Assembly: GCA_021463645.1 (NCBI GenBank)
Contig: JAJTYI010000004.1
Coordinates: forward strand, 1-46,276
Length of the DNA stretch: 46,276 nucleotides
Reading direction: 5' to 3'
From: a bacterium
GTDB taxonomy: Bacteria > Patescibacteriota > Dojkabacteria > B142 > OLB20
The notes under the pieces were generated by a model. It saw only the letters and a program-made list of their open reading frames with translations. It did not search any database and had not been told where the DNA came from. Positions 1,867-27,072 of the stretch are shown here, piece by piece (the stretch's first letter is position 1; the number at the start of each line of letters is the position of its first letter). The translations under genes were made by a program, and so were the position numbers.

Positions 1867-4800
1867 ATGAGTAATAAGATTGTCATTATCGACGATAATT
1901 TTTCAATTCGCCATTCAATTAAGGCGTATTTAACATCCCTTGAAAAGAAATATCAATTAGACCTTTCTGTCTTCTCAACCGATAATGGTGTTGAGGGACT
2001 TGGTTACATTTATATCACATCTCCCGATATCATAGTTATTGATACTACTCTTCCAAAGTATTCAGGGAGAGCAATTGTAGAATTTCTTTCACAAAATCCC
2101 CGTTTTCAGTCAGATAAAGTTAAAGTAATCATCCTTCAAGAGAAGTTAGAAAAAGATTTAATTGTTCCATCTAATTTTATTTCAATTAATAAAAACAAGA
2201 AGAAATCATTTGATGACCTGGTTAAGGTATTCAGTCATTTATTTGAAATTTCAGATGAGTTAAATAATAAAACTTTCTTTAGAAGTTTGGTAGGAAAAAT
2301 ATATATCAGCGCAAATAAAGTAGACCTATTAGGTAAATCGTTCAGAAAAAAGAGGCTGATACCGAAACTATTAAACAAGTTGAAGAGGTTTGTATATTCG
2401 GTTCTGACAAAGGTTATGCTGGCTTTGTTGGTAATGATCTATGGGAGGCCAGAAGAAGAAAATATCACGCAACTAAATATTGATAAGAATGCTTTTCGAA
2501 GACATTATTATCCAACATTAATTGCCACTTTTCTTTTCTCCGGCTTTCTACTCACCAATCTCGCAATTTTTGGTCTTACCCAGTTAGGCTTATACAATCA
2601 AAACAAAGAAGATGTAAAAGCTTTAGTGACCTTGACAGTAGATAGTACTCTCGATGATGCAGACTCAGATCCAGGTGATGGTGTATGTGATACTAATGAT
2701 GGAGTGGGCGATGGGCCATGTACACTCAGAGCAGCTATTGAGGAGGCAAATACTGAGGTTGATAGTGTGGTGATTGATTTTGCTATTCCAAATATCAACG
2801 ATACAACAACAAATTTATCCGATAGTTTGCAAGGTACCGAGGGCGATGCTACGGGATTTGTTCAAACATTAGGTATCCCAGCCCAGAAAACGGGTGGGGT
2901 TTTACAAACATTTACTGAAAGACCTGGAGCACAAGGATTGACAGACCTATTTGTTTTTGATAGTACAGCCGCACTCTCTTCATCCAATCCGTTAAACCTT
3001 TCTGATCAATTGGCGGCAGATGAAGGTACAGGTAATGCTACAGTAACAATTGTCTCCGAAAGTGACGATTTAAATCAACAATACATTGCATGGTTAGAAG
3101 ATGGAGATGTTGATTATCAAATGTTTCTATATGATCATGCTAGTGCATTATCTGCATCAAATCCATTGAATTTGTCAGATCAATTAGGTGTTGGTGACGG
3201 AACTGGAGATGCATCAGAACCAACTATAAACATGGATAGTACTGGTAGCGCATTTGTTTCATGGGTCGAAAATGGAGGTGCTAGAGGTGGTGAAGATATG
3301 TATTTATATAAGGGAGACGAATCGATATCAGCAACCAATCCATTGAATCTCTCAAATGAATTGCAAGGAGGGGAAGGTGTGGGAGATGCGAGAGGATTCT
3401 CAGTGATGAATGGTGATGAAGTGATAGTTATATGGGCAGAAGATGAAGGTTTAAAAGGCGGAGAAGATTTATACATCTTTAAAAACGACGACCCTATTTC
3501 AGCAACAAATCCGCTGAATCTTTCAAACCAGTTGCCTGCGGGTAGTGGAGAAAGTCTTTCAGGAATACAATACTTCGACGTTGGTGTTAGTATTTCAGGA
3601 ACCTTATTCGTAACTTGGACTGAATATAATGGTGCTAGGGGTTCGTCTGATCAATTCTTCTATAGAGATGATCAAGCAATCTCTTCTACAAACCCCATAA
3701 ATTTATCTGATGAGCTAGATGTATTACAAGGAACAAGCTATGCAGCTAATTTTGGGTTGAGATTATTAGTTGGATCCGATAACGAGGCGAAAGTTGTATG
3801 GCAAGAAAGAAGTACAAGTGAGGCTGATATGGATATATTCCTCTACGATAGTGGTAGTATTATCTCTGCTAGCAATCCGCTAAATTTATCTAAACAGCTT
3901 GGGGTCGGTGAGGGGACTGGTGATTCAGGGATCTCGTCAGATCAAAAGGTGTCACAGCACCTAGCATTAGATAGTAACAATAATCCGCACTTAATTTGGG
4001 CCGAAACCACAGGACTAAGGGGTTCTTACGATCTTTATTATTATAATGGATCACAGAGTCTATCCGCGTCGAATCCTTTGAACCTCTCGAATCAGCTAGG
4101 CGTTGGTGAAGGAACTATTAATGTCGGAGAAATTGAATTAGCGATGACTTCCACAGATACTGTTTATGTTACATGGGATGAATATAATGGTGCTAGAGGA
4201 GCAAAGGATTTATATTTATACGACAGCTCAATCTCTTTAAGCGCTACCAATCCACTAAACTTGTCAAATCTACTAGCAGGAGGTGAAGGAACAGGAGATG
4301 CCCAATCTTCTTATCTCTCGTATGAAACCCCAGCACTTGAAATTGACGATCAAGATTATGTCTATTTAGCTTGGAACGAGGATACAGGAACACAAGGCTT
4401 ATTAGACATGTATTATTATACAAACAAACCTATCTCCGGTATCACTTATCCTATTAATTTGTCCGAGAATTTAACATCGACCGAGGGTCTGATAAATGCC
4501 CTTGCACCACAGATTGCCGTAAATGATGGTATTGCCCATGTTTTTTGGCAAGAATCAAATGGACTCAGAGGTGGATACGATATTTATCATTTCAGTTCAG
4601 AAGTAGTAACTGAACATAGCATAATACCAAATACAGATTTGCCCGACATAACAAAATCAGATGTTACTATCGATGCTTCTACACAAAGTGGTGCTGATTG
4701 TGCAACTAGTACAGTAAAGGTTAGGCTTAGCGGAGAAAACTTAATAAGTAGCAAAAGAGGTTTTATTGTTGATGCTGAAAATGTAAATATTAAGGGTTTC

Positions 4801-7800
4801 AGTATAGTAGACTTTGCAGAATCTGGAGGATATGGTATTCAAATAAATCCTTCACAAAGTGCTACCGTACTTTGTAATATCGTTGGATTGGAAACAGATG
4901 GAACAACTGCAAATCCGAATTACACTGGTATAATGGTAGAATCGACAGGTTCTGTGAATATAGGGGATGGAACAGTCAGTGGAAGAAATATAATATCTGG
5001 GAATGATTCATATGGAGTAGGAACTTCTACTTGGGCTTATGTAAGTATTAAAGGGAACTACATAGGAACTGATAAAACAGGTCTGTTATCTAAGGGGAAT
5101 TTAAATGGCATATTGCTTGGTACTTTGACAACAGGTATTAACGTAATAGGTGGTGCAAGTGGACTAGATCCTGATAACGGATGTACTGGAGATTGTAATT
5201 TAATCTCTGGAAATACTATATCAGGGATTAGTTTCTCTGGATTTGAGCCAGGAGATAACGGAGATGGGACAGACAGATTAAATATTTTAGGTAATTTTAT
5301 TGGAACAAATGTAACAGGAACAGGGTCAATCCCTAATGGGAGTGGGATACAAAACTATTATGCGGACAGTGTAAATATTGGAGGAACTGATATTTCATCA
5401 AGGAACGTGATTTCTGGAAATTCAGGGAGTGGGATGACAATCTATAGCTATTTGACACAAGAAGGACAACAAGTTAAAGACTTGCATATCAGAAATAATT
5501 ATATTGGTACTAATGCATCTGGTACTTCGGCACTTTCAAACGGAAGTATGGGAATATACATGGTCAATAATATGCCAGAAGCGTTCATAACTGGCAATGT
5601 CATTTCTGGAAATCTTGGAAATGGAATAGAGACATTATTTGATTATACTGACGTACCTGTCGATTCTATTGTTATAAATGACAATAAAATTGGAACTCAA
5701 GCTGATGGATCGGGATCAATTGGAAACCAAGATAATGGAATATTACTTTTGGGTAAAGGGAATGTCTATATTGGAGATACTGGGGTAGGTAATATCATTA
5801 ATAATAATGGACAAAATGGAATTAAATTAAATGATCCAATACCACCTGGACCGGCAGTACCGCAATCATCAATAATAGTAAGTGTTAAGGATAACACTAT
5901 ACACAATAATGTTGGGTCAGGAATTGTAATACATAATAGCGGCTCATTGATTCAAGATAACTATATTTTGAATAATATAAGTAGTTCGGGAATCGAGTAT
6001 TATTGGGGAACGAGCCTAGATATTATTGGTAATAATTTTACTGGACAAGGGACTGGTATATTATTACACTCTCAACCTCTTATTCCTGGAAGTAATGCAG
6101 AAGGTGCTAATATTTTCCAAAATATTAACACAAGTCATCCTGCCATTGATTTAGATTATAGAACCTCTAATGATGTTGGAGATTCAGATTTTGGAGAAAA
6201 TAATTTACAAAATTACCCTGTTCTCACATCAGCGGAAGTATACACCGACACGAGATTATTTGGGACATTTAATAGTGAGGCAAATACATATTATCGAATA
6301 GAAGCTTTTGGGTTCTCTTCTCTTCCACTTTCAGAACCAATTGTCGAATCAACTATAGGTAGTACGATTATACAAACAGATGGTTCAGGAAACTATGATT
6401 TCTCTGTTAATCCAATTATTATTGCAGAACTATTATCGAATGACGACAATATTACAGTAACTGCTACCAAATGTAATGATAGTCTATGTAGCGATCCGAT
6501 AGAGACTTCCGAGTTAAGTGATGGTGTAGTAGCTACAATCTTAACACCCACACCGACACTCACTCCTCTTCCTACAGATACTCCAGAACCAACTCCTACG
6601 GATACACCGTTACCAACACCAACGAATACTCCACTGCCAACTCCGACCGAAATACCTAGTCCAACAAGCACTCCTACACCAACACCTGCTCCACCAAACG
6701 CACCTTCTTCACTAGGCCCTGCTATGTTAGAAGGTGGTGGATATACAAACGATACAACTCCCACTCTTGACTTTACTCTTTCAGCACCAGACACTGGTAT
6801 GCCTCTTTCATACAGGATTCAAATTCTCCAAGATGCTGCAGTAATAATTGACTATACTTCAGAGGAAGCGATTCAAGGAGTTAGATACTTTACTGTCGGG
6901 CAGGTTCCAGGATTAGGCACATACAATAATGGAGATGGATTTGAAGAACAAACACTTATTGAAGATGGTTACTCATGGAGAGTTATGGCTATGGGTTCTA
7001 GTGGTGATAGTACCTGGACGGATGCCAATAACAGTAATGTCGCTTTCACAGTAGACCTTCAATCTCCTACTGGAGGATCAATTTCATATACTGATGGTTA
7101 TCATACCTTCACTTCGGTCCCACTGGTACTTGATGACGGAACAGACTCTGCAGGAATCAATACTTCTACTAGATTAGTAGAAAGAAGTAGTGCAACACTC
7201 TCCACAGATGTGTGTTCTACTTTTGGGTCTTTCGAAGTAGTAACACCAACTGGCACTTATCCAAACCTAACAGACAACTCAGTAGCTGCAGCTAATTGCT
7301 ATCAATACAGATACACCCTTTCTGACAATGCAGGTAATGAAGTTACATATACATCAGTCAATGTTGCAAAGATTGATGTAGATGCTCCTTCTGCCCCTGG
7401 TGTTCCTCAGACTGAAACTCCTACATTTTCCGTTATTCAACAATGGACATGGGATGCCGCAGTAGACGTGGTCTCTGGAATTGCTCAATATGCTTGGAGA
7501 GTTGTTGATGAATTTGATAATACTATTGATAGTGGTGTAACTAATACTTTAGATGCTACTACCAACCTTGGAGTAGGAGTCTACACCTTCTTTGTTAGTG
7601 CTTTAAATAATGCAGGATTACTTAGTGATGAAAGTTTCGCAAACATTACTGTGGAACCTACTCCATCAAATACACCTATTCCAACTGCTACAGATACTCC
7701 AGAACCAACTCCTACTGATACACCTATTCCAGGTCCGACTGATACGCCAGTACCAGGAGCAACTAATACTCCGATTCCTACTGCTACAAATACACCGGTC

Positions 7801-9249
7801 CCTACGGCGACAAATACCCCAGTACCTACCGCTACAAGCACACTGGTCCCAACTGCGACAAACACTCTAGTTCCTACACCAGTCCCAACTACTGCACAAA
7901 TGGTTTATCCAACTTTAAGACCAACTTCCGCACCAGTTATTCCAACTGAAGTGCCTGCAACACCTACATCCACTACTATCCCAACTGAGGTAACACCGAC
8001 TCCATCTCCAACGCTAGAGCCTACGATGGTGCAACCTAGTCCAACTTCTTCCCCAACCGTAATCACTCCAACAGAGGGTGGATTCTTCAGTGATCTATCT
8101 CCGAAGAACTCTTATGCAATGCCAGAGGAATCCGTAGTAAACCATCCTGTTGTGAAATCCGTTGCGAAGACTATTACTGATAAATTAGATGAGTTAACAA
8201 GTGTATCTTCTCCAATTATTCCAATAGTAGAAGCACCATTAATCGTGGCAGAGACGTTAAAACCAATTTCAGATAATATCAATTATTATCTCTCTCTTCG
8301 ATTTATAGGAGAAAATGTAGCACTGGCAGGAATCTCAACTACTAATGTACTTGCTTATGTAGCACCTGCACTAGTCACTGCAATGTCCCAACCGAGAATA
8401 CTATTCCATGCATTTACATGGTTCTGGAAAAGGAAGAAGAAACAACATTGGGGAATTGTTTTGGATAATACTACAAACTCTCCAGTTGCTTTTGCAAGAA
8501 TTATCGTTTCCAAGGAAGGTAAGACAGTGGCCACAGCAACAAATGATTTGGAAGGTAAGTATGGATTTATTCTGGACAAAGGAGAGTACCAGATGTATAT
8601 CAATCATTCGGATTACACAGACTATCAGAAAGAAATATCAGTAAGGTTTGATGCGGAAGTTCTGGCACAAGATATCGAGCTCACTCCTAAATTACAGACC
8701 GATTTTGACTCCCCAGTTAGATGGACATATTTTAGACTCAAAAGGTTCATAAGTAAGAATTTGTTTATCTTCAATACAGTAGTCTTCTCAGTTGGTTTTG
8801 TTTATACAATATTTGCAATAACAAATGCACTAACAGTATTAAACTATGCAATCTTAGCATTGTACCTATTCCAGGTATTACTGATGATAGTCTTCTACAT
8901 TTTCAGAGAGAAAGATTGGGGACAAGTATTAGATTCACAAACAGGGGAACCAATAGCAGGGGCAATAATTAGAGTGTTTGACGATGAGAGACAATTAGAT
9001 GTAGCAATCACAGATACACAAGGAAGGTATAGTATTTATCTAGAACCTGGGGAGTATTTCTTAAAGGCAAATTACTCAGGATATATATTCCCAACTGCTA
9101 ATGCGACCAATGTGGTGACGAATAAATTAGGGGAGAAATTGTTTAAATTCGATGTGCAGGAGAGTCAGAAGTTAAATGTGAAGTTGTATATGCAGAGATT
9201 TGCTAATACAAATGTAAAACGTCAGGCGCTTTTGTCTCCATTCTCTTGA
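1867..9249 (+). CDS. Giant membrane-spanning surface protein: receiver domain, propeller repeats, CSLREA beta-helix, carboxypeptidase-regulatory-like domains
   Basis: 2460 residues. 1-125 form a response-regulator receiver domain: acidic pair D9/D10, phospho-acceptor position D59 in DIIVIDTTLP, and a Lys-rich segment where the conserved Lys falls; the usual Thr/Ser after strand 4 is not obvious (VIILQEK). A weak hydrophobic stretch (about 175-193) and a strong helix (213-238) follow, so the receiver should be cytoplasmic. A CSLREA-type start (CTLRAAIEEAN, about 285-297) is followed by nine or ten repeats of about 65 residues with NPLNLS and W-x-E motifs (309-912), which look like propeller blades. 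The right-handed beta-helix then resumes (919-1450, IGT-type coils), followed by PT linker, Ig-like domains and a long PT linker (about 1932-2075). The C-terminus has a helix near 2155-2185, a carboxypeptidase-regulatory-like sandwich, two helices (2297-2350) and a second such sandwich. It lies 83 bases after the preceding surface gene. Function is unknown; adhesion or sensing is inferred. Confidence 0.85.
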   Translation: MSNKIVIIDDNFSIRHSIKAYLTSLEKKYQLDLSVFSTDNGVEGLGYIYITSPDIIVIDTTLPKYSGRAIVEFLSQNPRFQSDKVKVIILQEKLEKDLIVPSNFISINKNKKKSFDDLVKVFSHLFEISDELNNKTFFRSLVGKIYISANKVDLLGKSFRKKRLIPKLLNKLKRFVYSVLTKVMLALLVMIYGRPEEENITQLNIDKNAFRRHYYPTLIATFLFSGFLLTNLAIFGLTQLGLYNQNKEDVKALVTLTVDSTLDDADSDPGDGVCDTNDGVGDGPCTLRAAIEEANTEVDSVVIDFAIPNINDTTTNLSDSLQGTEGDATGFVQTLGIPAQKTGGVLQTFTERPGAQGLTDLFVFDSTAALSSSNPLNLSDQLAADEGTGNATVTIVSESDDLNQQYIAWLEDGDVDYQMFLYDHASALSASNPLNLSDQLGVGDGTGDASEPTINMDSTGSAFVSWVENGGARGGEDMYLYKGDESISATNPLNLSNELQGGEGVGDARGFSVMNGDEVIVIWAEDEGLKGGEDLYIFKNDDPISATNPLNLSNQLPAGSGESLSGIQYFDVGVSISGTLFVTWTEYNGARGSSDQFFYRDDQAISSTNPINLSDELDVLQGTSYAANFGLRLLVGSDNEAKVVWQERSTSEADMDIFLYDSGSIISASNPLNLSKQLGVGEGTGDSGISSDQKVSQHLALDSNNNPHLIWAETTGLRGSYDLYYYNGSQSLSASNPLNLSNQLGVGEGTINVGEIELAMTSTDTVYVTWDEYNGARGAKDLYLYDSSISLSATNPLNLSNLLAGGEGTGDAQSSYLSYETPALEIDDQDYVYLAWNEDTGTQGLLDMYYYTNKPISGITYPINLSENLTSTEGLINALAPQIAVNDGIAHVFWQESNGLRGGYDIYHFSSEVVTEHSIIPNTDLPDITKSDVTIDASTQSGADCATSTVKVRLSGENLISSKRGFIVDAENVNIKGFSIVDFAESGGYGIQINPSQSATVLCNIVGLETDGTTANPNYTGIMVESTGSVNIGDGTVSGRNIISGNDSYGVGTSTWAYVSIKGNYIGTDKTGLLSKGNLNGILLGTLTTGINVIGGASGLDPDNGCTGDCNLISGNTISGISFSGFEPGDNGDGTDRLNILGNFIGTNVTGTGSIPNGSGIQNYYADSVNIGGTDISSRNVISGNSGSGMTIYSYLTQEGQQVKDLHIRNNYIGTNASGTSALSNGSMGIYMVNNMPEAFITGNVISGNLGNGIETLFDYTDVPVDSIVINDNKIGTQADGSGSIGNQDNGILLLGKGNVYIGDTGVGNIINNNGQNGIKLNDPIPPGPAVPQSSIIVSVKDNTIHNNVGSGIVIHNSGSLIQDNYILNNISSSGIEYYWGTSLDIIGNNFTGQGTGILLHSQPLIPGSNAEGANIFQNINTSHPAIDLDYRTSNDVGDSDFGENNLQNYPVLTSAEVYTDTRLFGTFNSEANTYYRIEAFGFSSLPLSEPIVESTIGSTIIQTDGSGNYDFSVNPIIIAELLSNDDNITVTATKCNDSLCSDPIETSELSDGVVATILTPTPTLTPLPTDTPEPTPTDTPLPTPTNTPLPTPTEIPSPTSTPTPTPAPPNAPSSLGPAMLEGGGYTNDTTPTLDFTLSAPDTGMPLSYRIQILQDAAVIIDYTSEEAIQGVRYFTVGQVPGLGTYNNGDGFEEQTLIEDGYSWRVMAMGSSGDSTWTDANNSNVAFTVDLQSPTGGSISYTDGYHTFTSVPLVLDDGTDSAGINTSTRLVERSSATLSTDVCSTFGSFEVVTPTGTYPNLTDNSVAAANCYQYRYTLSDNAGNEVTYTSVNVAKIDVDAPSAPGVPQTETPTFSVIQQWTWDAAVDVVSGIAQYAWRVVDEFDNTIDSGVTNTLDATTNLGVGVYTFFVSALNNAGLLSDESFANITVEPTPSNTPIPTATDTPEPTPTDTPIPGPTDTPVPGATNTPIPTATNTPVPTATNTPVPTATSTLVPTATNTLVPTPVPTTAQMVYPTLRPTSAPVIPTEVPATPTSTTIPTEVTPTPSPTLEPTMVQPSPTSSPTVITPTEGGFFSDLSPKNSYAMPEESVVNHPVVKSVAKTITDKLDELTSVSSPIIPIVEAPLIVAETLKPISDNINYYLSLRFIGENVALAGISTTNVLAYVAPALVTAMSQPRILFHAFTWFWKRKKKQHWGIVLDNTTNSPVAFARIIVSKEGKTVATATNDLEGKYGFILDKGEYQMYINHSDYTDYQKEISVRFDAEVLAQDIELTPKLQTDFDSPVRWTYFRLKRFISKNLFIFNTVVFSVGFVYTIFAITNALTVLNYAILALYLFQVLLMIVFYIFREKDWGQVLDSQTGEPIAGAIIRVFDDERQLDVAITDTQGRYSIYLEPGEYFLKANYSGYIFPTANATNVVTNKLGEKLFKFDVQESQKLNVKLYMQRFANTNVKRQALLSPFS

Positions 9250-9309: not shown

Positions 9310-11025
9310 ATGAAAAATCTTAAAGTTATTTCCATTCTTTTCGTATTTGCTTTTTTTATATCTCTAGAGGGTGTAAATGCCCAGACAGTAACACCCGAAA
9401 TTACTGTAGTACCTACGACAACATCTACTCCGACAGTTGCTCCAACAGATGCGCCTATTCCCACAAATGCATTACCTGGTGTCCCGCAAGGTCTGTCAGC
9501 TACTGTGATTAACGATGACCGTATTGATATCTCTTGGAATAGATCCGCAAACTCAACTGCTTACGAACTATTCCGTAACAATGAAATGGTGGCAGTAGTT
9601 AGCTCATTATTCTACTCAGATAATGGTCTTGAACCAGAAACTTCTTATAGTTACAAGGTTCGTGCATACGATGGTTCTAATTATTCAGCGTTTTCGACAA
9701 CAGTGAGTGCCACAACAAAATCTGAAACAGATGATTCTCCAAACCCTACAATCCCTGAAGGTCCTGACATTGAGCAAAAGACACCATCCGTGGTTGAAAA
9801 GTTCGGGTTTGTTACTCTAGGTACTGAGTCCTATGGATACACTGAGGTGCCCAAATTCGATGCAGGTGAGGACTTAACGATAAATGGAAGAACTGAATCT
9901 TATGCTGATATTGAAGTTATAGTAAAATCTGACCCAAAAAGCTACTTTGCAAAAGCGGACGAAGATGGCTTCTGGGTTGTGAAGGTAGACACTACTTCAC
10001 TAGAGCCTGGAATGCATACTTTTCTCATAAAAATATCTGCAGATGATTTTCCAGAAATATATGAAAGTGAAGAATATACTTTTGAAGTAAGTGAAAAACC
10101 TGTAGAAGAAGCGGTTACAGAAGACAATTCTTTCTCTAATAGAGTCAGATTTATTGCAATTGGGTTAATTATCCTAGTAATCCTAATTTTTGTAGTGGGA
10201 ATAATTCTTGCTAAGAAAAAAGGCCTCTTCAAGAAATTATCTGGAGACTCGAAGAAGGATTCTGGAGAGGCTTTGCCTACGCCTCCACAAGCAACATTTA
10301 GTGAAGATATGATTCAAATAGATGATGAAAGTTCTTCAAAACCTGAAACTCCTCCCGTTGAAGTAGAGCAAGTGACAGAAACACAGGCAAATCCCACTGC
10401 GATAATTCCTCCTGTTGTCGAAAATTCTCAACCAGTAGCAAATAAAACAATAAACTCCCCTACTGAAGAGGGATTTCCACAACCAGTTGAACAAATCAAG
10501 ACTCTTGATTCAATGCAGGGTTTAGGTTCTGGTGCACAAGTTAACACTAACGAGACACTAATTACCACAGATAACGCTGATAACAAGTTAGGTACTAGTT
10601 TAATAGATGATCAACCTATAGATGATGCATCCGAACAAACGGATGTGGACGAAGACCCTAATGTAGCCCACAGCGTAGATGAAATTGATACTGACGGAGT
10701 GTCTGTTGAAGTAGAGGATCTTGGGGTTAATCCGTACGCAGATGTTGTGCGAAAAAGTTATGCTCAAGAAATGCCAGATGAAGAAAACCTTCCAGTAATG
10801 GACTTATCTACCGGTGAAACCTCAGTTGAAAATTCTTTTTCTGTAAACGAGACAGATCTACAACAGCGACAACCAGTTGGGGATTACTCAACTACAACTC
10901 CAGTAATCACTAATGGTTCAGGTGTAAATTCTCCAGATGATAATATGGTTTCTGGAGTAACTAATATTCCTGCGACATCAATCGGAACTGAAAATAACAC
11001 ACAAGAGCCCAATCCTAGTAGTTGA
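9310..11025 (+). CDS. Single-pass surface protein: signal peptide, FN3, Ig-like domain, acidic cytoplasmic tail
   Basis: 571 residues. The signal peptide covers about 1-25 (hydrophobic ILFVFAFFISL, then NAQ). Next come a Thr/Pro linker (26-53), an FN3 domain (about 57-137; SWNRSANSTAYELFRN and YSYKVRAYDGS are typical strands), and an Ig-like domain (about 160-258) paralogous to the last domain of the gene ending at 1783. A strong membrane helix (about 278-300, IAIGLIILVILIFVVGIILA) is followed by KKKGLFKK, a positive-inside signal. The remaining roughly 270 residues are acidic, Pro/Ser/Thr-rich and probably disordered, and lie in the cytoplasm. It starts 60 bases after the giant gene, in the same direction, so the three surface genes probably form one locus. 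Its partner could be the receiver-domain giant; that is inference. Confidence 0.8.
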   Translation: MKNLKVISILFVFAFFISLEGVNAQTVTPEITVVPTTTSTPTVAPTDAPIPTNALPGVPQGLSATVINDDRIDISWNRSANSTAYELFRNNEMVAVVSSLFYSDNGLEPETSYSYKVRAYDGSNYSAFSTTVSATTKSETDDSPNPTIPEGPDIEQKTPSVVEKFGFVTLGTESYGYTEVPKFDAGEDLTINGRTESYADIEVIVKSDPKSYFAKADEDGFWVVKVDTTSLEPGMHTFLIKISADDFPEIYESEEYTFEVSEKPVEEAVTEDNSFSNRVRFIAIGLIILVILIFVVGIILAKKKGLFKKLSGDSKKDSGEALPTPPQATFSEDMIQIDDESSSKPETPPVEVEQVTETQANPTAIIPPVVENSQPVANKTINSPTEEGFPQPVEQIKTLDSMQGLGSGAQVNTNETLITTDNADNKLGTSLIDDQPIDDASEQTDVDEDPNVAHSVDEIDTDGVSVEVEDLGVNPYADVVRKSYAQEMPDEENLPVMDLSTGETSVENSFSVNETDLQQRQPVGDYSTTTPVITNGSGVNSPDDNMVSGVTNIPATSIGTENNTQEPNPSS

Positions 11026-16834: not shown

Positions 16835-18235
16835 ATGAACGAACAACCAATTCACGCCCCTAAGTTAGAAACACCCCAAACTCAGCCCAAACCAGTCAAG
16901 AAATCCGTTGATTCTCTGGTAATCCAGTACATTTTTTTCACTATTATCTTTACGATAATCATTGGAGTGTTTAGTTTAATAATGTCGGCAATTGCACAGG
17001 AAAGAAATGAAATCGCATATAGAAATTATTCAGGTACAGCAGAACTTTACGGCGGACCTCTAGCACAGTCTGCTCCTAGTTTGGGGATGCTTGATACACA
17101 AAGTTCACTCTATGTGGAAAATGATCTATCTTACGCTACTGCAAAAAGATATGTAGAGAATACAAGCCTACAGTCAACCGATGCAGATGTGACAATTACT
17201 GCAGATTTCGTAAAAAAGGGCTTAGTTTACCAACCAACATTCAAAACCAGCTTCAAAGCAAACTATTTGTTGAAAAATGAGCTAAATGAAGAAAGTTTGA
17301 TTAAATTCCAATTTCCGTTCCCAGGAAATATTAGCTCACAAGAGATTAGTAATGCTACATTATTAGTTAATGGAGAAGAAGTAACTAATGCGAAGACTCA
17401 AATCACTATTAATCCGACTAAATCGCCCTATGATTATAATTACTACAACAATACTCAATACGACGGACTAAGCTGGGAAGGAAAAATTCCAGCAGGGGAA
17501 GATGTTAACGTAGAGGTTAGATACGAAACTGTGGGAGTCTCTAGTTTTAATTACGAAGGAATTGAAAATCCTAAAGGATCCCAAGACTTCAAATTCAAAG
17601 TTACAATTAATGGAACAAGGTCATACGATGTCAATGATGGTCTAGCAGTAAGTGACAGAGAATTTGGTGACGGTGCTGTAAGTTTGTTCTGGGACAAACC
17701 TGATCTCTACTCAAAGCCAAAAGTGAGTATAACTGTTGGTGACAAACTTAACCCATCTGCTCAAGTATCTAGGGTTTATTTAACGATGGCACCAGTGTAT
17801 TTCGTATTTATAATAATTACACTTTATTTGGCGTATAGATTTGGTAAAAGAAAGCTATCATTATTTGATATGCTTCTTGTCACAATATTGTTTACACTGT
17901 ATTTCCCATTCGTACATTATCTTTCGAGTTTCACCATTGATCCTACGATTGAACTTTTCAGTAATTTCTCTAAAGTGCCTAATTTCTCCATGCCACTCTA
18001 TCTGGCATTCCTTATAGCAGTGGTAGTTATTGGGGGATTGATGTATTACCTTCTTGGACGAATTGCGGGTTTCAAATTTAGCTCGAAATTTGTAATTCCT
18101 GAAATGATTTTGGCACTAGGATTCTTCCCACTTGTCGTAACAATTCCTGAATATTCAATGTTATTAGTGATCGTAGGAGTAATAGCGCTAATGGCTATAA
18201 TTATTCAAACAAGAGTGAAGATGTTACGTGAGTAG
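16835..18235 (+). CDS. CreD-like integral membrane protein
   Basis: 466 residues, close to CreD (about 450). Topology fits CreD: one N-terminal helix (about 29-52), then an ERNE...GTAELYGGP stretch resembling the CreD ERQ...GxQxLxGPxL region, a large beta-rich extracytoplasmic domain (65-305) and five or so C-terminal helices (from 310) ending in TRVKML, compare the CreD C-terminal TRK. Identity is weak, so this is a fold- and topology-level call. It starts 112 bases after the ABC permease and is followed by a strong terminator at 18267, so it may be the last gene of that unit. Function unknown; envelope stress is only a guess by family. Confidence 0.5.
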   Translation: MNEQPIHAPKLETPQTQPKPVKKSVDSLVIQYIFFTIIFTIIIGVFSLIMSAIAQERNEIAYRNYSGTAELYGGPLAQSAPSLGMLDTQSSLYVENDLSYATAKRYVENTSLQSTDADVTITADFVKKGLVYQPTFKTSFKANYLLKNELNEESLIKFQFPFPGNISSQEISNATLLVNGEEVTNAKTQITINPTKSPYDYNYYNNTQYDGLSWEGKIPAGEDVNVEVRYETVGVSSFNYEGIENPKGSQDFKFKVTINGTRSYDVNDGLAVSDREFGDGAVSLFWDKPDLYSKPKVSITVGDKLNPSAQVSRVYLTMAPVYFVFIIITLYLAYRFGKRKLSLFDMLLVTILFTLYFPFVHYLSSFTIDPTIELFSNFSKVPNFSMPLYLAFLIAVVVIGGLMYYLLGRIAGFKFSSKFVIPEMILALGFFPLVVTIPEYSMLLVIVGVIALMAIIIQTRVKMLRE

Positions 18236-19019: not shown

Positions 19020-21614
19020 ATGAATCCCGAACAAGAATTAGTAATAACTCCAGAGATTAAAGATCGTTTAAATAACGATCCCTATTTGATGGCTTCTTTT
19101 CATCTCGGTCGTTTAGAGAAACAAAATGGTGGACAAAATCCTATAGAACAAATTGTTAGAAATGAAAATAGGGAACAAGCTTGGTTAGAATTCAAATACG
19201 GTGTTGCATTACAAGATCTATTTTTTACCCCTACATCAAGAGAAACATGGTTAGAAGATACTGTAAATTTTGCCACCCCCGAAGAAATTGAACACGAATT
19301 CGCATTTTACTTGGGCGCCAACTACATCAATTCTGAAGAATATTCTTTATTATTAAATGCCTTAGAAGTTAGTAAATTTATTCACGCAAATGACAAGAGA
19401 AGAGATGGTTTAAGGAGATCATTATACGGGCATCTATTACCCGGGTTAAGGGTGATTTTCGATAATAGGGGGGAAATAATAAATGATATTCTTGAAGATG
19501 ATGGGGATGATCCACTTAATTTTTTTGAATCAGTATTTACATTTATAGGACATGATTGGTTAGAGGATATTAAAGACTCTAAATTTGAAGAATATATCGA
19601 TCATTTTCCCCCTCAACTTAAAGATAATATTGAAGCTTTGACACATTCTAAAGGTGAGGGAGTATCAATAGAAGAGTATGCGAAAAAAATTGCGGGTAAA
19701 AAGCGGGTAATAAAATTTGTAAAGATGATAGACCGAATGGTAAATCATATCGATGATATTGGAAAAGCTCCTACTCTAGAAGTATTAACGGATGAGAAAT
19801 ATAAATCAAGACCTATGAAATATCTTGAGGAAACAAAAGAGAATTATCTAGAGGTATTTAGAGGTTCAAATTTACCTTTATTTAATAAGTTTGAACAAGT
19901 ACTTAAAAAAATTGAAAGAGATCAAGAATTATCAACAAACTATATAAAATATATTCACAATATCATTGTGGAGTGGATGGGTAGGCCGGGGAAGGTTGGA
20001 AACAGGGCGGATAGGTATGAGCATATGATTAGGATGATAAAAGATCTGGAGCAGAATTCTTCCAAATACGGTGTAGTAAACTCGACAGGTATGGTTGGGG
20101 CAATTTTTTTACATGACTTCGTAGAAACCAAGGCGTTCCAAGATAAATTACGGTCCACTTTAGCAACTATGGATGAGAGTAATCCAGAAATGGCAGAATT
20201 ATTAAGATATTCTATTGGAATTGCTTATTCATCAAAAGCGATTGAAGATAAGTCCGAGATACCTGTCCATAATATCAATTCAGTATACGGATTGAACATT
20301 GGTCCTGACCTTTCAGAGGAGAAGAAGGAGGAATTGAAAGATTTTAAACAACATTTGCACTCAATTCTGGGCAAACCTAGTAAGAGTCATGATAACAGTC
20401 GGAAACGAAGCTTCGAGTTCTTCAGAGCTAATAAAGATAAATTTTTTAGACTAAGACCTTCTATGGGAAATATCCCATTAAAGGCATTTAGGGAATCTCA
20501 GGCATTTGATATTGAGGGTCCTTTGCTAAGGTCATTAGAATTCTTAGATAATATTGATCATCTTGAAGGAATCGAAGAAATTGACCCTACCTACCTTTGG
20601 AGGCAATTGCAGGAATGTACATATCTTCTGATTCCCTTGATTGAATCGTTTGGACTTAAGGGAATGGCAAAGGTACTAAATAATAAAGTTGAAGAAAAAT
20701 TTCAGAGGGAACTATTATCTGAAGAAGGGTTTAATGAAATTCAATCTAAAGTAGATCAGTATATGTCACAATCCGAATTTGGAGTGAATAAAATGGAGAA
20801 GGTAATTAAGCGGGTAGCCTCATCTACGGGTGTAATTGAATTTGATAGAAAAAGTTTTATGGGTATTTTTAATAAATTCCTCTCGGAAGGAAGAACTCGA
20901 GTTACAGATATATTTCGATGTAGGATTGTTCTTAAAGAGAGTCAGGATGATGGATCATTTATGTTAAGTGCTTTTGAAACCATTGAAAATATTTTGTCGG
21001 AATTCGAAGAATCACAGAAAAATGATAATTTCGCAAATCTGTCACTTTCTATTGGAAGGCCATATGAAAGAGTTGATGGGGAAAAACCGAAATTAGCTAT
21101 AAGAATATCACTTCCTGATAATGAAGACTTTAAATTAGTGGCAAAAGACTTTGAGAAAAAGACAAGGCAAAGACTTGGAATTGATGAGATGATTGACCTA
21201 GTTCAATTTGTAGATCGAAAAACAGGATATAAGGATATAAAAGTGGTGTTTATGTTAGGTGATAAAGATAATCCTGATGCAGACCCTGTTTTTTATGAAA
21301 TGATAATCACCGATCCAGATAAACATCAGAACAACACTTTCGGTACAGCAGCAAGGGTTTATAAGTCGATTTCTCGGAGGTTTAAGGAAAAAGATATTAA
21401 ACCTGAGGAAAACGAATTGGATATTTTGCAAGAATTTTATAGGAGGTCGGGGATTTACGCAATAATGTCAACGAAAGGATTTTATATCTCTAGAAAATCT
21501 AGACAATGGTTAGTGGATAAAAAACTAGCTAAGGATGAACAATTAAAGGGCAAAAATATTGTTGACAGATTTAAAGGAATTATTACAAAAAACTCTAGTT
21601 ACATATTTCCTTAA
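19020..21614 (+). CDS. Divergent RelA/SpoT-homologue-like protein with two HD modules and a synthetase-like domain
   Basis: 864 residues, no membrane segments. First HD module: H138 (YGH), H178-D179 (GHDWLED) and D238 (MIDRMVNH), followed by YLEETKENYLEVF; this order and spacing match the RSH ppGpp-hydrolase HD (HDVVED, ADRLHN, AEETLEIYAPLA). Second module: H335, H365-D366 (FLHDFVET) and D510 or D513, followed by ECTYLLIPLIESFGLKGMAK, like the RSH connector. Then a RelA/SpoT synthetase-like stretch: K611-S612 in DRKSFMGIFNKFL (RSH: KSIYSIYRKM), D630 in TDIFRCRIV (RSH: DLIAIR), Y737 in TGYKDIK (RSH: NGYQSIH) and E760 in YEMIIT (RSH: EIQIRT). The His of SIH and the RT of IQIRT are not conserved. 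No TGS or ACT domain follows. Predicted to make and/or break (p)ppGpp or a related nucleotide; activity is inference. Confidence 0.7.
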   Translation: MNPEQELVITPEIKDRLNNDPYLMASFHLGRLEKQNGGQNPIEQIVRNENREQAWLEFKYGVALQDLFFTPTSRETWLEDTVNFATPEEIEHEFAFYLGANYINSEEYSLLLNALEVSKFIHANDKRRDGLRRSLYGHLLPGLRVIFDNRGEIINDILEDDGDDPLNFFESVFTFIGHDWLEDIKDSKFEEYIDHFPPQLKDNIEALTHSKGEGVSIEEYAKKIAGKKRVIKFVKMIDRMVNHIDDIGKAPTLEVLTDEKYKSRPMKYLEETKENYLEVFRGSNLPLFNKFEQVLKKIERDQELSTNYIKYIHNIIVEWMGRPGKVGNRADRYEHMIRMIKDLEQNSSKYGVVNSTGMVGAIFLHDFVETKAFQDKLRSTLATMDESNPEMAELLRYSIGIAYSSKAIEDKSEIPVHNINSVYGLNIGPDLSEEKKEELKDFKQHLHSILGKPSKSHDNSRKRSFEFFRANKDKFFRLRPSMGNIPLKAFRESQAFDIEGPLLRSLEFLDNIDHLEGIEEIDPTYLWRQLQECTYLLIPLIESFGLKGMAKVLNNKVEEKFQRELLSEEGFNEIQSKVDQYMSQSEFGVNKMEKVIKRVASSTGVIEFDRKSFMGIFNKFLSEGRTRVTDIFRCRIVLKESQDDGSFMLSAFETIENILSEFEESQKNDNFANLSLSIGRPYERVDGEKPKLAIRISLPDNEDFKLVAKDFEKKTRQRLGIDEMIDLVQFVDRKTGYKDIKVVFMLGDKDNPDADPVFYEMIITDPDKHQNNTFGTAARVYKSISRRFKEKDIKPEENELDILQEFYRRSGIYAIMSTKGFYISRKSRQWLVDKKLAKDEQLKGKNIVDRFKGIITKNSSYIFP

Positions 21615-21972: not shown

Positions 21973-24900
21973 ATGCCTCGCAAAAAGTATATTTCAGTTC
22001 TGACAGTTTTTTTTATCCTACTACAGTATTTTTCGCCTCTGGTGGGGTTGATTCCGGTACAAGCTACTGGAAATTCATTTAAGATGCCGAAACCAACTCC
22101 TATTGAGAATTTAAGTGTTTGTCCAGAAGGTAATGGTTGGACCGATCACATAGGGAAAGGTGCGGATGGTAATGTAAATTATACAGCCCCAACTGGTTAT
22201 GTCGTTGATTCCGTATGTATAAAGGGTGGGAATGAACTTAATAGCCCTAATGGTTATTTGGAGATCTTCACATCCAATAGTTGGTATAAAACTGGGACTA
22301 CGAATTGTGTTGGAGCTGCAGGAATAGGAAATCAAATGGCAAGTGCGTTACGAAATCCGAATGCAGAAGGAAATAAATGTGCAGATATTTCACATGCTTC
22401 ATTCAAATTAGCTAGAGTACAAGGTGCAGAGCTTGTATGTACCCCTGGTGTGAACCTATTAAAGAATGCAGATTTTGAAACACCAGTAGTTACTACCGCA
22501 ACAAACTGGGACATAGTCCCTAGTGGTACAACTGGTTTAGAATGGAAAGTAGAATGGCAAAGTATAGATACATTATTCGAAGGACAGAATAGACCTGAAA
22601 TTGCAAATCTCGAATTACATAAAGGTGTTAATGGGTGGCTTCCTCAAACAGGTTCACAATATGCTGAACTTGATTCTGATTGGTTTGGACCTACAAATCC
22701 ATTAACCAATGAACCTACTTCAGTTAAAATAAGTCAAGAAATTGCAACAATCCCTAATTACGAATACAAGGTTGAATATCATTTCTCACCTCGACCTGGA
22801 ACACCAGATGCAGATAATAAACTTGTTTCAGCTTGGGCAGGAAATACTTTGGAAACACATATTGCTACAGGAGGTGCAAACACATCATGGACAAAGCATA
22901 CAGAAACAATAGAAGCCACATCAGAGAAAGCGATTTTATCTTTCATGGATGATGGTAATCCAAACTCGCTAGGCACTTTCCTAGACAACGTAAGTGTAGA
23001 GTGTATCGGACCAGCAGTAGAGCCGACTACAACACCAACGAATACACCAACACCATCATTAACACCTACTCCAGAAGTATGTAGCGAAGGTCCAACATGG
23101 GTAAGTGGCATTTTAGAAGGAACAGATCAGGGTACAGAAAAAGATGGTTCTGCAGTACTCGCAGAAAGATCCAATCCAAACAATACATTAGGTGAAGCTG
23201 ATGGAAAATTCTTTAGTCTAGGACTTGGCGGAGTACTAATGGTTGAATTCGAATATCCTGTGTTAAATGTTGAAGATAAAATGGATATTTCGGTTCATGA
23301 AGTTACAAATGGCCGTACGTCTTATCCTGAAGAAAAGGCAAAAGTAGAAGTTAGTTTAGATGGAGATACATATTTTGAATTGGGTACAGCAAGTAACAAA
23401 TCAAATACAACTGGAGATGCAAGTGGACAAGGAGGAAATGGAGTTTCGCTTTTTGATCTTGAAACAGTAGGACTAGAAGCAGCTAAGTATCTAAGAATTA
23501 CCGATACCACAAACTATGCTCTACACATCGCCAGTGCTGATGGATATGATCTTGATGCAATCGATGCAACATATGGTTTGTGTGAAGAGCAGGAACTTCC
23601 TGACTTTGCAGATGTCACAGTCTGTAAACAAGATAATCAACAAAATTATCTTCCAGGATGGAATGTTCAGTTGTTAGGAGAATTTCTAGAAACAGTTGAA
23701 GTTGAACCTGATGACAAAATAGGAGATCCTTATACTCCAAGTTACTCATCAGAACTACCAGAAGGAGATTATGTTCTAATGGCAAGGGGAACTTATAAAT
23801 ACCGAGGAGGAACAGAATTATTAACTGATCCTGCCTATTCACAGAGGTTAGAATCTGATGGATTTGTAGGTCCATATATCCCATGGATAAATGTGATGGA
23901 TTTGACCACAACAGGTGCTCTTGGAGTTACAGTTAATGATGCTCCAGCAGATTGGGGTTACTTCTCACCAGCGAATACATATGCAAGAGGTTTTGAGAAT
24001 TATACAGGTGAATTTAAATTTACATCTTTCGATAACAACATAACTGATAATGAAGGCTCAATGTATGTGGATATTTACGAAGGTTATGCAGGATTTACTG
24101 AAGAAGATGGTTGTATAACTTTTGAAAATGTTCCTTATGGAGACTACATGACAAACGAAATCTTAATGAAAGATTGGGAAAATGTCAGTGGTCAAGCTAC
24201 TGAAGTGGTAGTTGAAAATGAAACTGAAACATTTACATTAGTAAATAGACCAGTTAGCGAGCCAGCAAAACTACTTGCAACCAAAGTTGTATGTAGTGAA
24301 GAGCAATACTTACCAAATAATCAACAAGGTCCAATTGACGCAGATACAGCTGCTGAGTGGGTTGCTCAAAGTGGAGGACAGTGTAAGATTGAAGAAGACT
24401 GGGATTTCCAATGGGGACCAGCAGGAAGTGGAAGTTTCGGAGACTTTCAGGAAAATACAACTGAGATGGGAGATCCATGGACAACATTTAGTTCAGGTGT
24501 TGAAGTCGAGTTACCAGAACTAGGAAGTGTCGGTGGAAGAGTAGAACTAAGAGAAGTCTTCCCAGATGATAGTTTTGTTCCTTTCTCAAATGATGGGAAT
24601 GTCAGTGCAGAATTCTACTGTACTGGTGATACCGCTAATTACGACAACTGGGAATGGTTGAGCGGCTATGAAAAAGACAATACATATTACTGTGTTGCAT
24701 TTAACGCAGAGAAAATAGGAGCAATTGAAGGTATGAAATTCGAAGATGCAAATGCAAACGGAGAGAGAGATGATGAAGAAATGGGAATTCCAAATTGGCA
24801 AATTGTCCTCAAACCTGAAACCCTTGAACCAATTTATGATCTTGATTTACCTGCAAATAGTCCAACTGGTGTAAATACTGGAGTTTTATCAAGCTCGAAA

Positions 24901-27072
24901 TACTACCTGGTAGAGGTAGAGGGAACATACAGTTACTCAGGGGTAACAAAACTCGCTGATGCTGAATATTATTCAACCGACAACTGGTCAAATTCTGCAG
25001 ACTTTGCAGATAATCTTGGCAGAGATGTGAGGACACTTGATGTTGTTATTGATGATCAAAACATTGAATGGGGTTCATCAAACTCTGCACATTTATACAA
25101 AACTGTTATTAAAGGAAATGATGCAGTTGCGAACCTAAGAATATTTGATGAAGATAATGATCCAAACCCACCTTCATGGTACAACGACAATGCTGGGACT
25201 TTAGAAGTCCGAGTATATGATGTATCCAATTATAGAGTTGAGACTGACGAAGATGGTGAATATTCACAAGAAGTGGAAAATGGAGAATATCAAGTAGTAG
25301 AAATTAATCAACCTGGATGGATTCAGACAGCTCCTAGCCCAAGTTATTGTCATCTGACAGTAGAAAATGGTAGCACGGAAACTTGTGAGTTTGGAAATAC
25401 AAGAATGGGTTCTATTGATGGTTATAAACTTGAGGATACAAATGGAGATGGAACTTTGACCAGACAAGACGCCAGGTTAGAAGGTTGGGAAATCAATCTA
25501 TGGACCGGTGACGAAGAAGACCCAATTTCAAAAATACAAACAAAAACTACTGATGAAAACGGTTATTACAAATTTGATAATCTACTACCAGGTATTTATT
25601 GGTTAAATGAGAATCAAAAAGATGGCTGGACCCAGACCGCTGGAGATGAAGTTCAGGGACCATTAGTTATTCAAGTTGGTACAGAATTACATGGAAATAA
25701 CTTTGGTAACTTTGAACTAGGAAGAGTACAAGGATATAAGTGGGATGATATGAATGCTAACGGAATGATGGATGAAGATAGAGCCTCTTTGCTCTCTGGT
25801 TGGAAAGTAACCTTAGAGATGTTAGAAGAAGATGAAGAAAACGGTTATAAAATAATGAATTCATTACCTTACAAAATGACAGATGAAAAAGGAGCTTTTG
25901 AATTTGATGGGTTGCTTCCAGGAGAATATAAACTTTGTGAGGAAATGCAAGATGGTTGGATGCAAACTTATCCATTAAAACAAAACGAGATAAGTGTAGC
26001 GTTCTCAGATGATTATGATACAGAATGTCACTACATTGAGATTGATACTTCAGGTCAAGTATTGGCAAATTTAAACTTCGGAAATTTCGAATTTGGACAG
26101 GTGAGTGGATACAAATGGGATGATGATAATGGTGATGGATTAAAGACTTACGGTGAGCCTAAAATGGAAGGATGGACTATCGAATTGAGGATGGACACAT
26201 ATGACGGTACAGTTATCGATACAGAGGAGACTGATACAGAAGGCGAGTATTCTTTCAAGAATCTAATGCCTGGTACATATTTCCTAACTGAGGTAAATCA
26301 AGCTGTTACAAACGGTTCATGGGAGCAAACATATCCTGTTGACCCAGGTTACCACACATTTGTAATAGACAGCTCTGGTGATGTCTTCGAAGATATGAAC
26401 TTCGGTAACAATGTTATTGGAGATATATTAGCGGAGAAAACCACTACAAACGAAACATTTACACCAGGCCAACTCGTTACCTATAACATCAGAGTTGTAA
26501 ACAAAGGAACTGAAACAGCTCATGGTGTGGAAATCTGGGATAATCTACCAGCAGGAATGCAATATTATGATTCCTCTCCAAATGGACAATATACCCCTGC
26601 AAACAATCGTGTTACATGGACAAAAGAAAGCCTTGATGTTAATGAAGAGTGGACTGCACAGATTCGATTATTAGTACCAGCAGATTCCACTGCAACTTCG
26701 ATAATAAATGAGGTTCGTGCCTTAAGATCTTGTCAGTTAGTAAACGAATTTACTACGACTCTTGTACCTTCAATTGTTGAGGTTCCAGAACCAGTAATTG
26801 AGTTCTGTGAAGATGACCCAACACCTGAGGATAATATTGATTCTGTTAGTTTGAATCGAGCACAAGTTGCTGGTGCAAATATAACTGATGATGAAGAATC
26901 TACAGGAAATATCAGAGGCATGGCTACGAGTGCACTCGGAAAAGTACTAGGTGCAAGTAATAGTCTTTCTGATACGGGGAGAAATATGTCAACAGCACTT
27001 ATTCTAGGTACATCACTGATTTCAGCAATATTTATTCTGAACAAAAATAAATTTCGCAGAAATATCTACTAG
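21973..27072 (+). CDS. Large cell-surface protein with DUF642-like, SdrD/Cna-B-like and DUF11 domains and LSDTG sorting-like tail
   Basis: 1699 residues. The signal peptide covers about 1-32 (basic MPRKK, hydrophobic core, VQATG). A galactose-binding-like, DUF642-type domain is at about 155-345 (NLLKNADFETP ... FLDNVSVECIG). After a short PT linker (349-368), a second jelly-roll-like domain covers 370-535. Several SdrD-B/Cna-B-like modules follow, with starts near 915 (GMKFEDANANGERDDEE), 1145 (GYKLEDTNGDG), 1249 (GYKWDDMNANG) and 1374 (GYKWDDDNGDG), each with calcium-type D-x-N-x-D/N runs. A DUF11 domain covers 1480-1590. The C-terminus is LSDTG (1665-1669), a hydrophobic helix and a basic end, 30 residues after the Gly; this looks like a sortase signal and matches that of the next gene. 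Probable wall- or membrane-anchored surface protein; ligand unknown. Confidence 0.85.
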   Translation: MPRKKYISVLTVFFILLQYFSPLVGLIPVQATGNSFKMPKPTPIENLSVCPEGNGWTDHIGKGADGNVNYTAPTGYVVDSVCIKGGNELNSPNGYLEIFTSNSWYKTGTTNCVGAAGIGNQMASALRNPNAEGNKCADISHASFKLARVQGAELVCTPGVNLLKNADFETPVVTTATNWDIVPSGTTGLEWKVEWQSIDTLFEGQNRPEIANLELHKGVNGWLPQTGSQYAELDSDWFGPTNPLTNEPTSVKISQEIATIPNYEYKVEYHFSPRPGTPDADNKLVSAWAGNTLETHIATGGANTSWTKHTETIEATSEKAILSFMDDGNPNSLGTFLDNVSVECIGPAVEPTTTPTNTPTPSLTPTPEVCSEGPTWVSGILEGTDQGTEKDGSAVLAERSNPNNTLGEADGKFFSLGLGGVLMVEFEYPVLNVEDKMDISVHEVTNGRTSYPEEKAKVEVSLDGDTYFELGTASNKSNTTGDASGQGGNGVSLFDLETVGLEAAKYLRITDTTNYALHIASADGYDLDAIDATYGLCEEQELPDFADVTVCKQDNQQNYLPGWNVQLLGEFLETVEVEPDDKIGDPYTPSYSSELPEGDYVLMARGTYKYRGGTELLTDPAYSQRLESDGFVGPYIPWINVMDLTTTGALGVTVNDAPADWGYFSPANTYARGFENYTGEFKFTSFDNNITDNEGSMYVDIYEGYAGFTEEDGCITFENVPYGDYMTNEILMKDWENVSGQATEVVVENETETFTLVNRPVSEPAKLLATKVVCSEEQYLPNNQQGPIDADTAAEWVAQSGGQCKIEEDWDFQWGPAGSGSFGDFQENTTEMGDPWTTFSSGVEVELPELGSVGGRVELREVFPDDSFVPFSNDGNVSAEFYCTGDTANYDNWEWLSGYEKDNTYYCVAFNAEKIGAIEGMKFEDANANGERDDEEMGIPNWQIVLKPETLEPIYDLDLPANSPTGVNTGVLSSSKYYLVEVEGTYSYSGVTKLADAEYYSTDNWSNSADFADNLGRDVRTLDVVIDDQNIEWGSSNSAHLYKTVIKGNDAVANLRIFDEDNDPNPPSWYNDNAGTLEVRVYDVSNYRVETDEDGEYSQEVENGEYQVVEINQPGWIQTAPSPSYCHLTVENGSTETCEFGNTRMGSIDGYKLEDTNGDGTLTRQDARLEGWEINLWTGDEEDPISKIQTKTTDENGYYKFDNLLPGIYWLNENQKDGWTQTAGDEVQGPLVIQVGTELHGNNFGNFELGRVQGYKWDDMNANGMMDEDRASLLSGWKVTLEMLEEDEENGYKIMNSLPYKMTDEKGAFEFDGLLPGEYKLCEEMQDGWMQTYPLKQNEISVAFSDDYDTECHYIEIDTSGQVLANLNFGNFEFGQVSGYKWDDDNGDGLKTYGEPKMEGWTIELRMDTYDGTVIDTEETDTEGEYSFKNLMPGTYFLTEVNQAVTNGSWEQTYPVDPGYHTFVIDSSGDVFEDMNFGNNVIGDILAEKTTTNETFTPGQLVTYNIRVVNKGTETAHGVEIWDNLPAGMQYYDSSPNGQYTPANNRVTWTKESLDVNEEWTAQIRLLVPADSTATSIINEVRALRSCQLVNEFTTTLVPSIVEVPEPVIEFCEDDPTPEDNIDSVSLNRAQVAGANITDDEESTGNIRGMATSALGKVLGASNSLSDTGRNMSTALILGTSLISAIFILNKNKFRRNIY

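Follow-up and report, generated by a model that had tools for sequence, protein, structure and literature searches.

Organization of the Locus

The window (the whole stretch of DNA that was analysed, 46,276 nucleotides) carries at 1867-9249, on the forward strand, a single intact open reading frame (ORF) with an ATG start and 0 internal stops, encoding 2460 amino acids (aa). This gene is one of four paralogs in its own Dojkabacteria genome (L012; 1.2 Mb in 9 contigs), in which 10 receiver matches were counted, 4 of them in giant ORFs. The features of the gene and of the next one are given below.

1867..9249, +, receiver-tailed giant surface protein gene, complete, 2460 aa (ORF; full-length paralogs in one frame)
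1867..2244, +, predicted cytoplasmic receiver domain, aa 1-126, without alpha-4; D9, D10, D59, K109, Q91 at the Thr/Ser position and E92 at T+1 (Pfam, model, Foldseek, alignment columns)
2041..2043, +, codon of D59, the phospho-acceptor position, conserved 22/22 (alignment columns, site rates)
2191..2193, +, codon of K109, conserved 22/22 (alignment columns, site rates)
2275..2442, +, linker helices, aa 137-192, with a weak hydrophobic segment (175-195) and conserved N150 and D153 (model, insertion estimate, site rates)
2461..2517, +, conserved juxtamembrane motif N199..Q202..R211..YPT217 (alignment columns, site rates)
2506..2586, +, transmembrane helix, single and predicted to be N-in, aa 214-240 (insertion estimate: dG of about 0 or lower, 21/21 sequences scored)
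2635..2751, +, CSLREA-like segment at the ectodomain start, aa 257-295 (NCBIfam, 24 of 25 bits, just under the cut-off)
2803..4671, +, tenfold repeat with units of about 60 aa (SATNPLNLSNQL...), spanning aa 313-935; its pattern alone is propeller-like (sequence inspection)
4744..6636, +, right-handed beta-helix region, about aa 960-1590 (Pfam Beta_helix under the cut-off; similarity to the C9 paralog, itself above the cut-off)
6634..6846, +, Pro/Thr-rich stalk 1 (P+T 37%)
6844..7611, +, Ig-like region (by eye; 81% identical to paralog C5a)
7609..8136, +, Pro/Thr-rich stalk 2 (P+T 47%)
8146..9246, +, C-terminal membrane module, aa 2094-2460, common to giant surface proteins of the class (profile matches)
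8317..8421, +, membrane segment A, about aa 2151-2185, of marginal hydrophobicity, then KRKKK (insertion estimate)
8452..8679, +, first transthyretin/carboxypeptidase-regulatory-like sandwich, aa 2196-2271, predicted cytoplasmic (Pfam, model, charge, Foldseek)
8761..8904, +, transmembrane hairpin, aa 2299-2346 (model, insertion estimate)
8926..9186, +, second transthyretin-like sandwich, about aa 2354-2440, predicted cytoplasmic (Pfam, model, charge)
9310..11025, +, following gene, after a gap of 60 bases, with a signal sequence, an fn3-like domain, one transmembrane helix and an acidic cytoplasmic tail

The downstream gene at 9310-11025 possibly belongs to the same operon. The three other paralogs are a tandem pair on contig 5 (C5a and C5b, 1922 and 1471 aa) and a gene on contig 9 (C9, 2319 aa). 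Their first 245 residues align with those of the window gene at 36-44% identity, and their middles are shuffled or unrelated to one another: that of C5a contains an NHL propeller and that of C9 a beta-helix, with similar stretches in C5b and in the window gene, as well as regions judged LamG-like by eye. The Ig-like region of the window gene is 81% identical to that of C5a, whereas the receiver modules of the two are only 42% identical, so that ectodomain blocks move between paralogs. A frame error or chance fusion was excluded, as both end modules lie in one frame in two further paralogs of the genome and in single ORFs of distant genomes (e.g., 4672 aa). In particular, no sign was found of the frame error joining two genes near 2230-2500 against which the first-pass annotation had warned.

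Fold of the Receiver Domain

Residues 1-125 had been described as receiver-like, with D9, D10 and D59, and this description was borne out. Pfam Response_reg (PF00072) matches residues 5-97 with 31.8 bits, above the cut-off of 30.2 bits. The AlphaFold model (pLDDT 84.5, pTM 0.80, a prediction built on 9 sequences) follows the order b1-a1-b2-a2-b3-a3-b4-b5-a5, that is, five strands with alpha-1, -2, -3 and -5, and a loop in place of alpha-4. With this model Foldseek gave a top TM-score of 0.78, for RR468, and nearly all PDB matches listed were receiver proteins; against viral proteins, receivers and kinases likewise ranked top. The predicted structure confirmed that the N-terminus of the window gene product adopts a receiver fold, strictly (beta-alpha)5 minus one helix.

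Pfam found no match to HisKA or HATPase_c in the chain, which is therefore not a hybrid histidine kinase, and neither Pfam nor NCBIfam indicated a DNA-binding or enzymatic effector domain in the window gene, only surface-protein and transthyretin-like domains. With receivers of the Spo0F/CheY type (PF00072; RR468, Spo0A REC), the domain shares the fold, the order of elements and the DD/D/K quartet. It differs from them in that most members here are without Thr/Ser, in that alpha-4 is missing, and in that the receiver is not free in the cytoplasm and has no DNA-binding output.

Conserved and Lost Residues

D59, K109, the Pro at D+4, the Gly at D+8 and the Thr at D+2 are invariant (22/22), a count taken over 22 distinct but mutually related members, hence not over 22 independent events. 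The first acidic position (DD1) is D in 20 and E in 2 of these members, and the second, metal-binding one (DD2) is D in 18, N in 3 and E in 1. The Thr/Ser whose absence the first-pass annotation had noticed is indeed missing, the position being Q91 in the window gene and T or S in only 6/22 members. The following residue (T+1), normally Ala or Gly in receivers, is here acidic (E or D) in 20/22, and the aromatic residue at K-3 is gone (S106 in the window gene; no aromatic among the residues listed for the family at this column). The T position and K109 are separated by 16-20 residues across the family; the spacing between T87 and K109 of CheY is 22 residues.

The site rates, obtained from a tree totalling 19 substitutions per site, follow the same division. 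Ranked slowest first among 245 positions, K109 is 4th and D59 6th, against 135th for the T position and 179th for K-3, both of which evolve at about average rate. Along the domain, alpha-2 and beta-3/alpha-3 are more conserved than alpha-1 and alpha-5 (alpha-5 0.34). A vestigial receiver, carried along by gene fusion and having no present role, would agree with the loss of the switch residues, but D, K, P, G and the Thr at D+2 have been kept in 22/22 members over 19 substitutions per site; this explanation is already disfavoured and appears very improbable.

Any receiver in which one or more of the five active-site residues are lacking has been defined as a pseudo-receiver (Bourret et al., 2025, PMC12632262). 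Going by its residues, the receiver of the window gene is a pseudo-receiver under this definition, as Thr/Ser is missing, whereas the same rule would class family members that keep both T/S and DD as true receivers. The coupling known as Y-T depends on T plus K-3 (PMC12632262); in the window gene, the five active-site residues are incomplete and this coupling pair is absent. A bulky or branched T+1 may in addition hinder phosphorylation, as in the case of BldM (PMC12632262). The pseudo-receivers of atypical response regulators resemble this family in having a receiver fold without Thr/Ser. However, in pseudo-receivers in general D, T and K are each present in about 65% (PMC12632262), whereas D, K, Pro D+4 and Gly D+8, eroded in those, are invariant here; alpha-4 is missing here, and the output would be a membrane-anchored surface protein. 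As read from the alignment, the family fits neither norm: the residues of phosphate chemistry (D, K) persist, and the Y-T switch does not. The invariance of K109, the loss of alpha-4 and the acidic T+1 are new with respect to the first-pass annotation, as are two findings described below, a family that extends through the class and a C-terminal module that occurs independently of the receiver.

Linker and Membrane Topology

Between the receiver and the ectodomain, the linker and juxtamembrane residues N150, D153, N199, Q202, R211 and T217 are as constrained as the active site according to the site rates. The weak hydrophobic segment formerly noted before the main helix is present at about 175-195: its dG is unfavourable in most members, whereas the second segment (about 214-240) inserts in 21/21, both according to a Hessa-type estimate in an approximate implementation and hence rough. 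The first segment is probably in-plane and not membrane-crossing. A topology in which both N-terminal segments cross was rejected, as the dG of the first is unfavourable and the acidic, Cys-bearing middle would end inside.

Charge and cysteine patterns were compared over 31 proteins bearing the C-terminal module. In 31/31, the Lys/Arg share of charged residues in the middle lies between 0.19 and 0.39; it is 0.32-0.65 in the transthyretin-like domains and 0.46-0.58 in the receiver, and cysteines are almost confined to the middle. These sequence patterns support a topology with the N-terminus in, the middle out and the C-terminus in. The about 1900 extracellular residues attributed to the protein after its membrane helix are thus recovered, from helix 214-240 to the C-terminal membrane segment, the charge and cysteine pattern agreeing. 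An external position of the transthyretin-like domains is disfavoured by their Lys/Arg-rich flanks and receiver-like charge balance in 31/31 proteins; their inside placement follows from charge and not from hydrophobicity, the first C-terminal membrane segment being only marginally hydrophobic.

Ectodomain

The folds of the ectodomains (beta-helix, NHL propeller, Ig-like) suggest a putative role in adhesion. Sdr/MSCRAMM-type and other large repeat adhesins likewise present a large modular ectodomain, Ig-like or prealbumin-like folds and P/T-rich stalks. Unlike the Sdr/MSCRAMM type, the present protein is membrane-anchored at both ends, with predicted cytoplasmic domains at both ends. No LPXTG/sortase-type end was found on it, the C-terminus (...QALLSPFS) following the transthyretin-like domain.

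C-Terminal Module

Pfam placed two CarbopepD_reg_2 stretches at the C-terminus. The structural model of this module, of moderate confidence (pLDDT 65, built on 6 sequences), consists of a sandwich, a helix hairpin and a second sandwich, and Foldseek aligned the sandwiches with the transthyretin-like domain of carboxypeptidase D at TM-scores of 0.79-0.84. Together with charge, these data agree with the earlier proposal that the C-terminus returns to the cytoplasm with two carboxypeptidase-regulatory-like sandwiches around two helices.

The C-terminal module was detected in 66/86 genomes of the class, mostly without a receiver. The window gene covers all 367 positions of its profile (A2), with a large acidic ectodomain in frame, and is thus a C-module giant. 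Among 20 ORFs fetched from outside the receiver family, none (0/20) has the N-terminal module; 16/20 open with a short basic tail followed by a hydrophobic helix. The remaining 4/20 have their start within a domain or at the end of a contig, and probably represent fragments or ORFs with a wrongly assigned start. The C-module giants of Dojkabacteria share with the window protein the C-terminal membrane segment, the two transthyretin-like domains around a hairpin and the variable ectodomain, but in most of them the N-terminus is a short signal anchor or a signal peptide, and no receiver is present. As C-module ORFs are mostly without a receiver and have a short signal anchor, the receiver can be regarded as an optional cytoplasmic tail on a surface-protein chassis. 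One C-module giant (L125:551-8488, 2645 aa) presents 126 cysteines in its ectodomain.

Distribution of the N-Terminal Module

The search for the same architecture in related genomes, which the first-pass annotation had proposed, was positive. The N-terminal module (receiver, linker, membrane helix) was found with at least 99 bits in 14/86 genomes of the class, in 6 of 17 listed families, in ORFs reaching 4672 aa and fused to unrelated ectodomains. Named records with this module are Candidatus Dojkabacteria. In a search of 380 genomes of the phylum, a sample that includes members of the class, all that matched outside the class were ordinary receivers; the best of these scored 37.6 bits, and no open frame in the matches listed exceeded 692 aa. 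Two peptide patterns, run over one genome per species (84,980 species), found full-module relatives in Dojkabacteria and otherwise in just one metagenome-assembled genome (MAG), named Doudnabacteria; such patterns detect fairly close relatives only, and the same architecture built independently would escape them. The Candidatus Doudnabacteria record (L027, JAEUSD010000021.1) is a probable naming difference, the genome to which it probably belongs (G015) being placed in the class of the window. The window gene belongs, then, to a class-specific family of giant surface proteins. Our literature search, made largely outside subscription journals, found no paper on receiver-tailed surface proteins.

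Most of the assemblies are MAGs in which giant genes are broken. In L104 (6317-18001) and in L138, the receiver giant is apparently split, with the N-terminal module in two pieces and the C-terminal module in a separate ORF, and appears to be a pseudogene or an assembly error.

The module also occurs without an ectodomain, as a stand-alone gene of 273 aa (L108:3704-6782) divergent from an ECF sigma gene and with a FecR-domain neighbour. A relative occupies the same place in L109, where it is cut by the contig end, and a receiver-only gene of 155 aa was found in L100. These genes speak against the idea that the module is a bulky variant of the signal anchor, whose receiver fold would help membrane targeting or the timing of export and would have no signalling function. 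Such an aid to export or folding would be in line with the replacement of the short N-tail of other C-module giants by the N-terminal module, and with the module being much alike whatever the ectodomain, but invariant catalytic residues would be needless for it. We consider this explanation improbable.

Gene Neighborhoods and Kinases

A partner histidine kinase had been suggested as a target for searches. None was found near the window gene; on its contig, about 66 kb separate it from the closest HATPase_c match, and a linked kinase was found at only 1 of about 20 loci. At that locus (L110:7658-13680), downstream of the giant and on one strand, lie two 7TM-PAS genes without kinase domain, a 7TM-PAS histidine kinase and two CheY-like genes; the giant was assigned to the receiver type though its receiver lies off the contig. 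HisKA kinases are encoded in 14/14 genomes bearing the module, but since 77/86 genomes of the class have HisKA, this co-occurrence is uninformative on phosphorylation.

These data bear on an inside-out phospho-switch, in which a histidine kinase or acetyl phosphate would phosphorylate D59 and the signal would pass through the linker and membrane helix to the ectodomain or to clustering, regulating adhesion without transcription. The invariance of D59 and K109 over 19 substitutions per site, the mostly kept acid pair, the invariant Pro D+4, Gly D+8 and Thr D+2, the conserved linker and juxtamembrane motif, and the kinase with two CheY-like genes near the L110 giant, besides HisKA in all module-bearing genomes, are consistent with it. 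On the other hand, the usual output path is gone (Thr/Ser in 6/22, K-3 aromatic lost, no alpha-4, bulky acidic T+1), DD2 is Asn in three members and Glu in one, the HisKA count carries no weight (77/86), and no kinase lies near the window gene. Taken together, we hold this switch to be a tentative and rather unlikely explanation. A broader formulation, a post-translational output of two-component systems in which phosphorylation or regulated docking of the membrane-tethered receiver would switch or position the giant adhesin from inside, seems to us equally tentative. There, phosphate chemistry would be kept, and the alpha-4/Y-T output would be replaced by the alpha-2/beta-3-alpha-3 face and the membrane linker.

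The genome of the window holds several ordinary response regulators and kinases, for which the receiver tail might compete. Acting from outside to inside, the tail would titrate kinases or receivers, and engagement of the ectodomain would feed back on two-component systems. The retention of D and K with loss of the output face is compatible with such a sink. Kinases usually dock at receiver helices alpha-1 and alpha-5, and these are less conserved here than alpha-2 and beta-3/alpha-3, though contact helices may co-vary; most loci, moreover, are without genetic linkage. Pseudo-receivers have been proposed to act on two-component partners (PMC12632262), but a sink strikes us as quite unlikely here.

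The neighborhood of the C9 subtype is of another kind. In L094 (1-6387), this subtype closes a type IV pilus operon encoding PilB- and PilC-like proteins and prepilins fused to LamG or LRR, and in the genome of the window (L012, 9803-12924) the same last genes of the pilus operon precede C9, i.e., the arrangement is found in two genomes of the genus. The LamG- or LRR-fused prepilins of these operons reach 914 aa.

A Proposed Docking Handle on the Inner Membrane Face

The reading that we prefer, with a probability of about 0.5, is that the receiver serves as a docking or positioning handle on the inner face of the membrane, in a mode similar to that of FrzS. The starting point would be the general Dojkabacteria chassis, a membrane-anchored ectodomain and a C-terminal membrane module whose two transthyretin-like domains are predicted to be cytoplasmic. 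Its short signal-anchor tail would have given way to a pseudo-receiver in the cytoplasm, joined by a linker to a transmembrane helix. The receiver would bind a cytoplasmic partner via the conserved alpha-2 and beta-3/alpha-3 surface, and this binding would place, cluster or gate the giant protein; partner binding, the surface used and the outcome, whether positioning or clustering, are inferences.

Several observations argue for docking: the receiver fold, the loss of the Y-T switch, the acidic T+1, the constraint on the linker and juxtamembrane residues, and the signal anchor that C-module giants without receiver have instead. The occurrence of the same N-terminal module on unrelated ectodomains also counts for it, since a common inner handle would be expected to behave in this way. 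So does the type IV pilus operon of the C9 subtype, a link limited to that one subtype. Against docking stand D59, K109, Pro D+4 and Gly D+8, kept in 22/22 related members compared with about 65% for D and K in pseudo-receivers generally, and the histidine kinase with two CheY-like genes downstream of the L110 giant. The invariant D and K hint that phospho-chemistry is still selected.

The first-pass annotation had hesitated between a coupling of phosphorylation inside to adhesion outside and a docking platform. The latter is the better supported by our data, with the Y-T output gone, T+1 acidic and a kinase at 1 of about 20 loci; the former, for which the invariant Asp59 and Lys109 leave room, fared less well. 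FrzS of Myxococcus xanthus, which acts in polar type IV pilus control, has a pseudo-receiver that docks a partner at the type IV pilus pole (PMC12632262; PMC1974792). By analogy, it is the nearest precedent in the proposed mode, not a sign of membership: both have a receiver fold off the classical switch, with docking near pili in FrzS and one subtype in a pilus operon here. Unlike FrzS, which is without the acceptor Asp (PMC1974792), the present family has invariant Asp and Lys (Asp59 22/22), and its receiver is connected with a membrane helix and, beyond it, with a giant ectodomain.

What receivers normally govern is cytoplasmic: transcription, enzymes or motors. Here, by contrast, a receiver forms the inner terminus of a giant surface protein. 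An altered receiver in this place suggests that the cell positions or controls giant surface proteins from inside, and not only via their genes. The receiver-tailed family would then link intracellular signalling directly to the cell surface, free of transcription, in ultra-small bacteria with small genomes, in which contacts to other cells are thought to play a central part. The contrast between invariant D and K and drifting T, K-3 and alpha-4 makes this family a natural test case for pseudo-receiver function, and the C-terminal module provides a handle for annotating giant surface proteins class-wide.

Other Genes of the Window

For two further ORFs of the window, at 16835-18235 (466 aa) and 19020-21614 (864 aa), neither Pfam nor NCBIfam gave a match. 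A second giant adhesin-like gene lies at 21973-27072 and encodes a surface protein of 1699 aa with SdrD_B, SpaA, DUF11 and choice-of-anchor C-like domains, a signal sequence and a C-terminal membrane helix. At 33644-34765, a Fic-domain gene directly follows a class I (Trp/Tyr-type) tRNA synthetase gene and overlaps a SpoU methylase gene.
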